From: a virus
IMG/VR virus record: IMGVR_UViG_3300008267_000197
Location: 1 to 32,742 of that record
Length of the DNA: 32,742 nucleotides
Direction: 5' to 3' (one strand)
Each line of letters opens with the position of its first letter. Position 1 is the first letter of the stretch. Below the pieces are notes generated by a model, which was not told the DNA's origin, did no database searches, and saw only the letters and a program-made list of their open reading frames with translations. Below are positions 16,858 to 21,110 of this stretch, piece by piece. Position numbers and translations under genes: made by a program.

Positions 16858-17487
16858 ATGGCATTTTGGAATTTAGTTTCAATAGAACCAAAAAGAACAT
16901 TCAGATACTTGGTAACATTTGGTGCTGCTAACGGTGTTGGTGGAGATAAGCTATCTAGCCAAATATCTATGTTTGCAACATCAGTTGATAGACCAAAATA
17001 TGAAGTTAGCTTCAAAGAATTTCAATATTTGAATCATCAATTTAACTTTCCCGGTAGAGTTAAATGGTCAGATATTACAATGAAGTTCGTAGATGCTGGT
17101 AGATCTGGCGATGCAACCAACCCAATCTTGGATATGGCAAAGCTAATGATGCAAGTAATCAACAACTCAGGGTATGTTATTCCAGAAGATTCTTCAAAAG
17201 AACTTAGAACTTTATCAAAAGCTGCTTTTAATAAACAAATTGGAGATATTTCAATTAAAATTTTAACAGCAGATGCAGATAACGCTCAAGCATTAACAAA
17301 TGACATGATTGTTGAAGAATGGACATTATACAACAGCATGTTTGGAAATGCTACTTTCTCAGGTTTAAGTTATGATAACGAAGAATTCAGCACAATCGAT
17401 TTAACTGTTAAATATGATTATGCTAAATTGACTGTATTTAATGGTCAAAATGCACCAACACAACTACCAGCTAATCCAGTGAGATAA
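16858..17487 (+). CDS. Tail tube protein (T4 gp19 type)
   Basis: A 209-residue protein forming the stacked hexameric inner tube of the tail through which DNA passes. ATG follows TAGGAGAA. The N-terminus MAFWNLVSIEPKRTFRYLVT and the blocks VDRPKYEVSFKEFQYLNHQF, WSDITMKFVD and MIVEEWTLYNSMFGNATFSG, ending in LTVKYDYAKL, are the order seen in gp19-like tubes: two beta sheets with a helix between. It is somewhat longer than T4 gp19 (163). It lies immediately after the sheath and before the assembly-chaperone-like gene, the standard order in myoviruses. Confidence 0.9.
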   Translation: MAFWNLVSIEPKRTFRYLVTFGAANGVGGDKLSSQISMFATSVDRPKYEVSFKEFQYLNHQFNFPGRVKWSDITMKFVDAGRSGDATNPILDMAKLMMQVINNSGYVIPEDSSKELRTLSKAAFNKQIGDISIKILTADADNAQALTNDMIVEEWTLYNSMFGNATFSGLSYDNEEFSTIDLTVKYDYAKLTVFNGQNAPTQLPANPVR

Positions 17488-17502: not shown

Positions 17503-18321
17503 TTGCGTAATAATGATCTAACTAGTTTATTTAACAATCAGACAGAAAATACAGATAGTCCCGCCTCAGTAAAAAGCTCTTTAGATTATGTGATGCCAAC
17601 GGAATTGGTAGAGTTACCATCAAAAGGTAAACTCTACCCCGTTGGTCATCCTTTAAGAGATAAAACAACAATAGAAATTAAACAGATGACTGCTAAAGAA
17701 GAAGATATTCTTACTTCTGAAAGCTTCATTAAAAACGGTGTTGTTTTAGAAAAGTTTTTAAATTCTATTATTGTTGACAAATCCATAAAAGGCGAAGATC
17801 TAGTTGTAGCTGATAGATCAGCTATTTACCTAGCTGCAAGAATTCTTGCATACGGTCCAGAATATGTAATAGATTTAATCTGTCCAAAATGTAGAGAACA
17901 AAAGAGTCATACATACGATTTAATGAAGTTTCCAAAAATTAAAAAACTTCAAGAAGAAGCAGCAGTTTCAGATCAAGGAACTATTAGTTTATCTCTACCA
18001 GTAACAAATTGGAAAGTTGAATTAAGATCTGTGTTTGGTAAAGATGAAAATACATTATTTGATAGAAAAAATTCAGCAGACTCGCTTATAACTAGCCAAA
18101 TACTATCTATGGTTGTATCTATTAACGATGTTACAGACAAAGAATTACTTAAAAAAGCAGTAGAAGTTATGCCTGTAAAAGACACAAAATTCTTAAGAAC
18201 AAAATATAAGGAAAATATGCCAAGTGTAACATTTCCTTATGCGATAGAGTGCAAGAAATGTAATCACTCTGAAGAATTGGAGGCTCCAATTACATTGGAG
18301 TTTTTTTGGCCTAAGCAGTAA
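17503..18321 (+). CDS. Four-cysteine tail/baseplate assembly protein (T4 gp26-like, tape-measure chaperone position)
   Basis: A 272-residue protein between the tube and tape measure genes. The start is a TTG at 17503 behind AAGAGG; a nearby ATG at 17499 gives only a three-codon frame, and the next in-frame ATG is at residue 31. Conserved-looking parts are ELVELPSKGKLYPVGHPL at 34-51 and the helical TAKEEDILTSESFIKNG at 63-79. CPKC at 127-130 and CKKC at 250-253 probably form a zinc site joining the two halves. This matches the T4 gp26-like baseplate-assembly family. The gene ends GAG TTT TTT TGG, a run of seven T, next to a 53-residue ORF in the +1 frame, an arrangement typical of tail-assembly chaperones made in two frames. 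Confidence 0.7.
   Translation: MRNNDLTSLFNNQTENTDSPASVKSSLDYVMPTELVELPSKGKLYPVGHPLRDKTTIEIKQMTAKEEDILTSESFIKNGVVLEKFLNSIIVDKSIKGEDLVVADRSAIYLAARILAYGPEYVIDLICPKCREQKSHTYDLMKFPKIKKLQEEAAVSDQGTISLSLPVTNWKVELRSVFGKDENTLFDRKNSADSLITSQILSMVVSINDVTDKELLKKAVEVMPVKDTKFLRTKYKENMPSVTFPYAIECKKCNHSEELEAPITLEFFWPKQ
18301..18307 (+). other. Candidate programmed ribosomal frameshift site (T7 run)
   Basis: TTTTTTT is read TTT TTT T in the frame of the gene at 17503. A +1 shift (or -2 slip) here enters the frame GGC CTA AGC AGT AAA TAC ATG and continues without a stop to 18487, giving a product of about 327 residues. A -1 shift would stop after two codons (TTG GCC TAA). Placement directly before a tape measure gene matches known G/GT-type chaperones. 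The shift itself is not demonstrated. Confidence 0.45.
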
Positions 18322-18325
18322 ATAC

Positions 18326-18487
18326 ATGGAAACTGTTTATGAACAGTTTTTCTTGATGAAACATAAAGGTGGTTGGAGCTTAATAGAATTATACAACCTT
18401 CCAGTTGGCTTAAGAGGTTGGTTTTTTAGAAGATTAGCGCAACAATTTAAAGACGAAGCAGAACAATTAAAAAAATCATCTAAATAA
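18326..18487 (+). CDS. Small ORF, possible frameshift extension of the tail assembly chaperone
   Basis: A 53-residue ORF (METVYEQFFLMKHKGGWSLI, then ELYNLPVGLRGWFFRRL and a charged helical end) lying four bases after the stop of the upstream gene, in its +1 frame. The bases before its ATG (AAGCAGTAAATAC) hold no good ribosome binding site, unlike almost every other gene here, so it is made either by re-initiation after the upstream stop or as a frameshift extension. The conserved-looking GGWSL..LYNLP..LR.W pattern supports a real protein. It precedes the tape measure gene, from which it is separated by a terminator. A role as the T part of a G/GT chaperone is inferred. Confidence 0.65.
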   Translation: METVYEQFFLMKHKGGWSLIELYNLPVGLRGWFFRRLAQQFKDEAEQLKKSSK

Positions 18488-18490
18488 TAA

Positions 18491-18522
18491 AAAACGAAGC
18501 TTAGTATTAGGCTTCGTTTTTT
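18491..18522 (+). terminator. Rho-independent terminator before the tape measure gene
   Basis: AAAACGAAGC (18491-18500) pairs with GCTTCGTTTT (18511-18520) across a ten-base loop, with more T after. The A-run/T-run symmetry would let it act in both directions. It ends the sheath-tube-chaperone transcript. Confidence 0.85.
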
Positions 18523-18529
18523 ATTTGTT

Positions 18530-18566: not shown

Positions 18567-21110
18567 ATGGCCCCTAAATTAACACCAGAGCAGATGGAAA
18601 AAAAAATAGACGAACTTGAAAGTAAAATTAAAACGCTTTCAGGTAAAGCTGCTACCAGTGCTGGTTCAGTTGGAGGAGCTGGCGATTTAGAAAAAACAAT
18701 GAATGGTATGTCTTCATTGGCTGGTGAGGTTGAAAGTTTATATAATAAATTAGATTCAGCTAGGGCAGGATTTTCTTCGTTTACTGGTTTGGCAAACGAA
18801 GGAGTGCCTGTTTTAAGAAAATATTCTTCTTCTGTTAGAGGTCTTGGTTTAGACTATGAAACGTCAGCACAAAATTTAAAACAGTTAGTTGAAGGTGTTC
18901 CAGATTTCTTAAATAAATCTCAAGAAATGCAGACTAGTATGGCAATACAGTCTGCAAGATTAAGTAAGCTTGGTGTTGATTTTGCAACAAATGCAAAAAA
19001 TATGACTACCATGACTAAAACTCTTGGTTTAACAGACCAAGAGACAATGAAATTTAATGGTACTCTTTTTAAGTTTGCGAATTCGTTAAAACAACCTCCT
19101 TCTATAATTTTTAAAGAATTTGGTGCCGCTCTACCAAAACTAATACAATTTGGTAAAGCCGCTCCAAAGGTATTTATGGAAACGGAAGTTTATGCTAAAA
19201 AATTAGGTATAAGTGTTGAATCACTTATTGATCAAATGGGTCAATTTGATACATTTGAAGATGCTGCTGAGTCTGCTGGACAATTAAACGTTATCTTGGG
19301 TGAAAATTTATTTGATACTCAAGCAATGTTGTTTGCAGAACCCGGTGAAAAAGTTCAAATGTTCGTTGATAAGATGCAAGAATTTAAAGAAAGAACAGGC
19401 CAGTCCTTTAATGATTTAGATCGTTTTACACAAAAACAATTTGCTAAATCTGCTGGTATGGATTTGGATACTCTTAAAAAATTATCTGGATTAAGTGCAG
19501 AAGAAGCAAAAGAATTAGCAGCCCGAAAAGATAGCGTTCAAATGAATGCAGATGGTAGTGCTGAATTACAGAAAGCGGCAGCAGCTGCAACAACTACTAT
19601 GGATAGATTAGCCTCTAAGAAGGATCAACTAGCTGGTCTAGCTCTACCTTTTGCTGATATTAAAACAAGCCTTGAAGCCAGCGTAGCTCAAACTGAATTA
19701 TTAACTAAAGCTTTTGTCGGTTTAGCAAAAACTGATCCCGGTATTCGTGCTGCCTTTGAATCACAATTATCACAAGCTACTACAGATAAAATGATTAGTG
19801 ACTCTGGCATAAATAATATAAAAGTTGGTTTTGAAAATATATTAAAAGACCTACCAGCTGGATTAGGAACAGCTTTTCAAAAAATTCTACCACTATTAGA
19901 CGATGCTGCAAAAAATACTTTATTATTTAAAGAAGGTGGTGTTAAAGAAATATTAGGAAAAACTATAGGTGGCGTTAATTTAGCAGATGCAACAGGTTTT
20001 TCTGATGAACAGATTGCTTTGTTCCAAAAACAGATGGATGCAAAGCGTAATATGATACAAAAAAGTAGAGAAGGTGTTGCCACAGCCTTCGGTGCCACAC
20101 CAGAAGAAGCAAAAACTGTTGCAGACGCGATAAAAAATAAAGATTTACTTAGCGCAGAAGTAACATTTCAAGGCGCGGAAGTTGTTTCTAATGCTATTAT
20201 CAAAGGAAAAGAAAGAGTAAAACAAGAAATGAAAGACGCACAGGATCAGGCAGCTTTAACAGGTGTACCTGTTCCTATAGCTTCTACTTTTGCTAAGTCT
20301 GTTGCTTTATCCACTAGCGATGTCTTAACTTCGATAGGCACTCAATTAGAAGAATTAAGAACTGGACCAAAAGGTGAAGAATTAAGAAAATTAACAGGCG
20401 AATTAGGTGTATTTGTTAGCGCTGAGATTAATGGTGTTTTTAACACCATATTAGACGTTTTTAATCCAGCGAGTCCAACAGCACAAGCTTTAAATTTAAC
20501 CTCACAACAATCAATTCAAGCTTTGGAGGGAATACTAGCTAGTTTGGTTGGTGTTGTAACAAATGCAAATTCTAATCTTGGGTCAAACATCCCAGCTTTT
20601 ACAAATAATGTTTCTGGATTAAATACTGGTCTGAGCGGTTTAAATTCTTCAATGTCAAATATCGCTGCATTGGGAAGCCCAGCGTTAGCACAACAAGCAA
20701 GCGCAGCCAGCACAAATGCAACAACAATTGGAAGTACTTTAAATACTGTTAATTCCTATCCTACTAGTGCTGGTAATGTGCCACAATATATGGATAGTGT
20801 TGCTGCATCGGCAGGAACTTTAGCAGCTAATTTAGCCGCAGTAGAAAGTAAAATATCTGTGTTAGACAAATTAAAGTTTGATGCAACACAAGCTGCAAAT
20901 ATAAAAGCTTTGGGTGATGCTATGGACCAATATGTAGATGCTCTTAAAGCAATGTCAACATTGAGCGATGAACAAGATAAGTTTATTAAAGCAATGGAAG
21001 CCTTAACTGGAGCTATGGCAGGTAAAACATTTGAAATTAAACTAGACGAAGGTAAATTAGGTGATGCGATAGCAAGAGGAGTCAGAGGTGGAGCTACGAG
21101 AACAAAATAA
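18567..21110 (+). CDS. Tail tape measure protein
   Basis: An 847-residue, mainly helical protein in the tape-measure position, after tube and chaperone-like genes and before baseplate genes. It would set tail length and be ejected through the tube. Residues 1-65 are coiled coil (QMEKKIDELESKIKTL). The Ala/Ser/Leu-rich body has long helices without cysteines (for example QSARLSKLGVDFATNAKNM and FKFANSLKQPPSIIFKEFG at about 130-190). Residues about 610-770 are Ser/Asn/Thr/Ala rich (GLSGLNSSMSNIAALGSPAL). The C-terminus is basic (AIARGVRGGATRTK). It is longer than T4 gp29 (590), which would suggest a longer tail if length scales in the usual way. Start behind TTTCAGGAAA. Confidence 0.82.
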   Translation: MAPKLTPEQMEKKIDELESKIKTLSGKAATSAGSVGGAGDLEKTMNGMSSLAGEVESLYNKLDSARAGFSSFTGLANEGVPVLRKYSSSVRGLGLDYETSAQNLKQLVEGVPDFLNKSQEMQTSMAIQSARLSKLGVDFATNAKNMTTMTKTLGLTDQETMKFNGTLFKFANSLKQPPSIIFKEFGAALPKLIQFGKAAPKVFMETEVYAKKLGISVESLIDQMGQFDTFEDAAESAGQLNVILGENLFDTQAMLFAEPGEKVQMFVDKMQEFKERTGQSFNDLDRFTQKQFAKSAGMDLDTLKKLSGLSAEEAKELAARKDSVQMNADGSAELQKAAAAATTTMDRLASKKDQLAGLALPFADIKTSLEASVAQTELLTKAFVGLAKTDPGIRAAFESQLSQATTDKMISDSGINNIKVGFENILKDLPAGLGTAFQKILPLLDDAAKNTLLFKEGGVKEILGKTIGGVNLADATGFSDEQIALFQKQMDAKRNMIQKSREGVATAFGATPEEAKTVADAIKNKDLLSAEVTFQGAEVVSNAIIKGKERVKQEMKDAQDQAALTGVPVPIASTFAKSVALSTSDVLTSIGTQLEELRTGPKGEELRKLTGELGVFVSAEINGVFNTILDVFNPASPTAQALNLTSQQSIQALEGILASLVGVVTNANSNLGSNIPAFTNNVSGLNTGLSGLNSSMSNIAALGSPALAQQASAASTNATTIGSTLNTVNSYPTSAGNVPQYMDSVAASAGTLAANLAAVESKISVLDKLKFDATQAANIKALGDAMDQYVDALKAMSTLSDEQDKFIKAMEALTGAMAGKTFEIKLDEGKLGDAIARGVRGGATRTK

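Follow-up and report, generated by a model that had tools for sequence, protein, structure and literature searches.

Bacteriophage T4 has long been described as an exception to chaperone frameshifting among long-tailed phages. Frameshifting of tail assembly chaperones is otherwise well known, and -1, -2 and +1 cases have been described (PMC5009743), in agreement with a sequence-only reading of the DNA analysed here, which had counted -2 and +1 shifts besides the -1 type. In phage lambda, the tape measure is bound by the short form of the chaperone and the tail tube protein is recruited by the long form; +1 frameshifts are known in structural or assembly genes of tailed viruses from the HSTV-2 tail chaperone and from cps/tsh of Listeria phage PSA (PMC5009743). 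Chaperones of T4-like phages were identified in 2022 (Vladimirov, Gautam & Davidson, Virology 566:9-15), with another mechanism proposed, according to the title as cited in PMC10885494; poly-T -1 signals are mentioned for some of them in a citing paper (PMC12846349). In the open-access papers searched, neither a +1 shift nor an upstream hairpin signal is described for the T4-like chaperone family. A further relevant system is prfB, which encodes RF2. At the RF2 site CUUUGA in vitro, an upstream duplex adjacent to the E site stimulates +1 shifting; such a duplex promotes +1 and counters -1, while -1 is favoured by downstream structure and by a Shine-Dalgarno (SD) sequence lying 8-11 nt upstream (PMC6321510).

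The sequence analysed here is a 32.7 kb IMG/VR virus fragment, which we call the window. The product of its gene at 17503-18321 (+ strand; 272 aa; TTG start with SD-like AGAGG upstream) matches PF12322 in a profile search (E 2.9e-17, 63.5 bits against a curated cut-off of 24.5) and phrog_150 (E 1.2e-18). Judged by these matches, it is a tail assembly chaperone of the T4 gp26 family (PF12322) in a T4-related myovirus, and the gp26-like, T4-like context claimed by the sequence-only reading is borne out. The gene lies between the tail tube gene (16858-17487, phrog_4542 match) and an ORF at 18567-21110 (+ strand), as G/GT-type frameshifting chaperones do. We assign the latter ORF to the tape measure protein from its position, its size and its homology to the relatives' gene at the same place: about 58 relatives have a homologous ORF there, and an annotated tape measure occupies the corresponding place in immuto and SP-15. 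With lambda G/GT the locus would share its location ahead of the tape measure and the making of two products from one gene by a frameshift, but lambda uses -1 and the window apparently +1. We propose that a single gene gives rise, very probably, to a short chaperone of 272 aa and a long one of 327 aa by a +1 shift at TTT TTT TGG.

The 3´ end of the 0-frame gene reads GAG TTT TTT TGG CCT AAG CAG TAA. The seven-T run (18301-18307) forms the codons TTT (18301-18303) and TTT (18304-18306) and the first letter of TGG (18307-18309), and the short product would end at the TAA at 18319-18321 (+ strand). Within this candidate shift site (18301-18309, + strand), a P-site tRNA-Phe can re-pair in +1 on TTT 18305-18307. 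The run is the only coding-strand T7 within the tail genes (13.9-24.9 kb). The sequence-only reading had noticed the run but had put it at the gene's end, whereas it lies 12 nt before the stop. It was right that the +1 frame is open from 18248 through 18487 and that a -1 slip would stop at once (it would read TTG GCC TAA). It had further described a 53-residue ORF lacking an SD sequence, directly upstream of the tape measure gene. The frame of this ORF is indeed +1, the next gene is the tape-measure-position ORF, and no SD precedes its ATG at 18326 (ttttggcctaagcagtaaatacATG), but the translated part would be the full 59-codon extension from 18308. This C-terminal extension (18308-18487, + strand; GLSSKYMETVYEQFF...KKSSK, 59 aa) is delineated by its conservation and by the pattern of third-position substitutions.

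In the mechanism we propose, most ribosomes would stay in the 0 frame and produce the 272-aa short chaperone. Some would pause when tRNA-Phe is paired with UUU in the P site and UGG occupies the A site, the tRNA-Phe would slip one base forward and re-pair with the overlapping UUU, and reading would continue in the +1 frame (GGC CUA AGC...). The result would be a 327-aa fusion in which ...LEFF is followed by GLSSKYMETVYEQFF..., a T-like domain; its predicted tryptic junction peptide is CNHSEELEAPITLEFFGLSSK. From position and family, the two products would be a short and a long tail assembly chaperone. By analogy with lambda gpG/gpGT, the short form may coat the tape measure and the long form may recruit tail tube subunits.

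Using the window protein as query, 80 IMG/VR relatives were fetched, and counts were made on 56 non-redundant close relatives. All 56 have an in-frame TTT TGG located 9-18 nt before the 0-frame stop, with the extension in +1, and in several of them the frame can be switched only within a stretch of about 20 nt surrounding the T run. A motif-first scan, using the DNA motif alone and ignoring the downstream frame, yielded 70 non-redundant loci with complete downstream sequence; in all 70, the +1 extension is 40 aa or longer, begins with GL and has Tyr at position 6. The junction-spanning peptide GL[ST]x[ED]Y is largely conserved in the close relatives. Alignment of related phages was the check that the sequence-only reading had suggested, and it shows that both the TTT TGG site and the frame relation are kept: the relation is conserved as +1, not variable. 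The loci share descent, so binomial p values overstate their independence. Taken together, these comparisons strongly support the view that the chaperone gene ahead of the tape measure undergoes a programmed shift into +1.

A wider set of loci was gathered with annotated relatives as queries. The +1 extension is also present in the immuto group, in the L083 group, and in Microcystis phage Mel-JY01, Bacillus phage SP-15, Listeria phage LIS04 and Streptococcus phage GXN1. A deep clade carries the +1 state, isolates included (Microcystis Mel-JY01, Flavobacterium immuto, Bacillus SP-15). In annotated relatives the extension is omitted or annotated as a separate hypothetical protein; the second half of the gp26-family +1 gene is routinely recorded as a small hypothetical protein, or missed. 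Two contigs of the immuto group (L266 and L271) differ: the extension has left the +1 frame and has its own ATG, and the site reads TTC TTG TAT and TTC CTT TGG, respectively, the first Phe codon being TTC. Judging from these sequences, they apparently represent a natural control in which frameshifting would have been lost.

Other members of the family take different routes. In cyanophage S-PM2 and its relatives (62 non-redundant loci), the gene belongs to the same family and occupies the same place before the tape measure, but the distantly related extension lies in frame -1, behind T TTT TTC. These gp26 genes carry a textbook -1 signal, in which T TTT TTC is preceded at about 10 nt by an SD-like GGAGGG and followed by a strong hairpin, and their extension is annotated as "gp51" (L094 4170-4260 and relatives L176-L255). 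The jumbo phages XacN1 and RAS14 (L084 and L089, around 3792 and 3780) also have a -1 extension in this gene, which follows T TTT TTT A and is recorded by annotators as an ORF of its own; searching with the XacN1 protein brought up no relatives. In T4 there are two genes and the frame is not shifted, as opposed to one gene with two frames in the window. T4 gp26 and gp51 both match PF12322, the family of the window chaperone, gp51 being a paralogue of gp26 that is extended at its C-terminus. In profile comparisons, the window-clade extension shows a clear relationship to its counterparts in the immuto and L083 groups (97.5-98.8%) and a weak one to the cyanophage extension (probability 68%, E 5e-5), while the gp51 C-terminal domain is related to the cyanophage extension (hhalign probability 91%). 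Direct profile comparison of the window-clade extension with the T4 gp51 C-terminus gave nothing (probability 0.2%), hence their relation goes via the cyanophage extension. When the frame is mapped as a label on the gp26 tree, 3 changes suffice. A common environmental clade of the T4 gp26 family would use +1, cyanophages -1 and T4 two genes.

Two elements lie upstream of the slip codons in the window and its close relatives. The first is an SD-like GGAGG (18279-18283, + strand), recognized by a codon bias and by its duplex energy with the anti-SD. In 48 close relatives, codons along the chaperone gene are chosen at random (observed minus expected 0.005, sd 0.09). Near the site, codons are almost fixed: the second Phe is TTT in 48/48, the first in 44/48, and Asp -2 is GAC in 42/42. 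The Glu -8 codon, which makes GGAGG, is GAG in 46 of 47 compared with about 28% GAG elsewhere in the gene, and the anti-SD duplex in the close clade reaches -9.9 against a codon-preserving null of -4.4 kcal/mol.

The second element is a hairpin adjoining the slip codons, CTCCAAT-TAC-ATTGGAG (18284-18300, + strand), which emerged from folding against codon-preserving controls and from covariation counts. In the close clade, the 24 nt directly 5´ of the slip codons have an MFE of -5.4 versus -2.0 for the codon-preserving null, with 32 of 48 loci at p<=0.05; no such excess was found 5´ of the site in the -1 clade (0/38), nor in stretches further upstream in the gene, save a weaker one in the adjoining 24 nt. 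Many relatives have the form CCGC-UNACN-GCGG. The percentage paired, the number of double-sided cells and the covariation score all exceed those of all 500 shuffles, and the window lineage supplies part of the double-sided changes. The hairpin is weak, about -6 kcal/mol, and not clear in every relative (e.g. L007, L013 and L014). The full 61-nt region in the window folds no better than shuffles (z -0.45). A second hairpin register (columns 8-12/17-21) was considered and is unsupported.

Directly downstream of the site we found no RNA structure in the +1 clades (mean z about -0.3). The -1 clade has the reverse arrangement: an SD-like element sits about 10 nt before the site and a strong hairpin follows it (mean z -2.6, 71% below -2), with no hairpin upstream. 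The upstream duplex of the +1 clade and the spaced SD with downstream hairpin of the -1 clade match the rule established in vitro (PMC6321510). By analogy with that rule, we infer that the hairpin at 18284-18300 and the GGAGG at 18279-18283 would stimulate the shift. The sequence-only reading had the T run right, but it missed the upstream hairpin, the SD-like element and the family's -1 members. The family can be viewed as a natural experiment: opposite ribosome movements would serve a single protein need, each with the type of stimulator predicted in vitro.

The likeness to prfB concerns +1 re-pairing of the P-site tRNA on an overlapping UUU and an upstream duplex beside the E site; the immuto-group sites even contain CTT T. 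The differences are several. In prfB, the SD lies 3 nt before the P-site codon and a stop codon occupies the A site, whereas in the window 17 nt separate GGAGG from the first TTT, the hairpin lies between them, the A-site codon is TGG and the system is not autoregulatory. HSTV-2 and PSA stand further apart, with an archaeal host or CCC proline shift sites, other genes and other signals. As a tentative idea, on which we would not quite wager, GGAGG and hairpin may form a composite signal: the hairpin, placed between GGAGG and the P site, would shorten the distance, so that stacked duplexes would come to lie at the E site with RF2-like spacing. The layout in the window might then, with equal reserve, be GGAGG-[hairpin]-UUU(E)-UUU(P)-UGG(A). 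If the composite reading is true, one family has evolved opposite signals, an upstream duplex for +1 here and a spaced SD with downstream hairpin for -1 in cyanophages.

The same frame could also be reached by a -2 ribosomal shift on the seven T, as in phage Mu, the fusion then having one extra Phe (FFF-GLSSKY; its junction peptide would contain FFF). The precedent is real (PMC5009743), and with their T7 run both the window and 54 of 58 close relatives permit tRNA to re-pair cognately in -2 at TTT. However, the proportion falls to 31/64 in the immuto group and to 0/13 in the L083 group, i.e. such re-pairing is impossible in 33 and 13 loci, respectively, as it is in the window-clade members with TTC TTT TGG. 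At all 139 +1 loci, an in-frame TTT is followed by T or C at the switch point, and therefore tRNA-Phe can re-pair in +1 in every one of them. The +1 relatives include the sites TTT CTT TGG, TTT CTA TGG and TTC TTT TGG, which favour +1 over -2; for TTT CTT TGG or TTC TTT TGG, a simple -2 slip would be excluded from the letters of the site. A duplex situated upstream, beside the E site, is likewise a +1-type stimulator (PMC6321510). Of the two directions left open by the sequence-only reading, +1 or -2, we consider -2 unlikely and infer that the window itself uses +1.

Alternatively, the small ORF might be a separate protein whose translation starts at ATG 18326, coupled to termination at the stop before it. 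The ATG (18326-18328, + strand), which annotation would use, is only 4 nt past the 0-frame stop, so coupled re-initiation could add a small protein. It corresponds to extension codon 7, a variable position with Met in just 25 of 56 close relatives. Between the upstream stop and 24 codons past the site, 23 of the 56 have no ATG in the +1 frame and 18 have no ATG, GTG or TTG at all; a small ORF with its own ribosome binding site, which the sequence-only reading had named as evidence against a shift, is thus not the rule among relatives. The frame is also conserved ahead of this ATG, since codon 6, past the 0-frame stop, is Tyr in 56/56 (TAT 36, TAC 20). Substitutions in the extension fall at +1-frame codon positions 1, 2 and 3 in 28, 13 and 60%. 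With the missing SD, and with the frame kept in over 100 loci, we regard separate initiation as very unlikely. By comparative evidence, the locus would rather combine the two characteristics of G/GT-type chaperone genes, an overlapping second frame without its own start and a conserved slip site.

Transcriptional slippage at the T7 would produce mRNAs lacking one U, from which the fusion would arise by ordinary translation. The homopolymer is present in the window and most close relatives, but some relatives that still keep frame and extension have TTTCTTTGG, TTTCTATGG or TTCTTTTGG, where no more than four T stand in a row. Because the relatives with TTT CTT TGG, TTT CTA TGG and TTC TTT TGG have no T run of sufficient length, and because the SD-like element and the upstream hairpin are not expected under it, we give slippage only a slim chance. 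Homopolymers are prone to error, yet an assembly indel in what is really one continuous frame has practically no probability, as the same break recurs in more than 100 independent contigs and in isolate genomes, homopolymer-free sites included.

Returning to the chaperones expected from the +1 shift, the AlphaFold model of the 0-frame protein has a pLDDT of 85.5. Its closest solved chain is the HK97 chaperone 2ob9 (Z 4.6 over 91 residues, the next at 2.9), a weak match that is suggestive only; Foldseek gave no significant match against the PDB. The extension alone matched no PHROG or Pfam family beyond a weak phrog_20255. The 17503-18321 product contains two CxxC pairs, CPKC and CKKC, suggesting a zinc ribbon, and a second look at the fold listed several zinc-ribbon-type chains at Z 2-3. 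Most of these cysteines are absent from the immuto group.

A terminator-like element (18488-18523, + strand) separates the extension from the tape measure gene; it is a 16-bp hairpin followed by few T (-18.2 kcal/mol, z -7.1), with a T-rich 3´ arm and tail. Throughout the window, T or A runs of seven number 40, about half of the 82 in shuffled sequence, and A runs on the + strand make up 35 of them.
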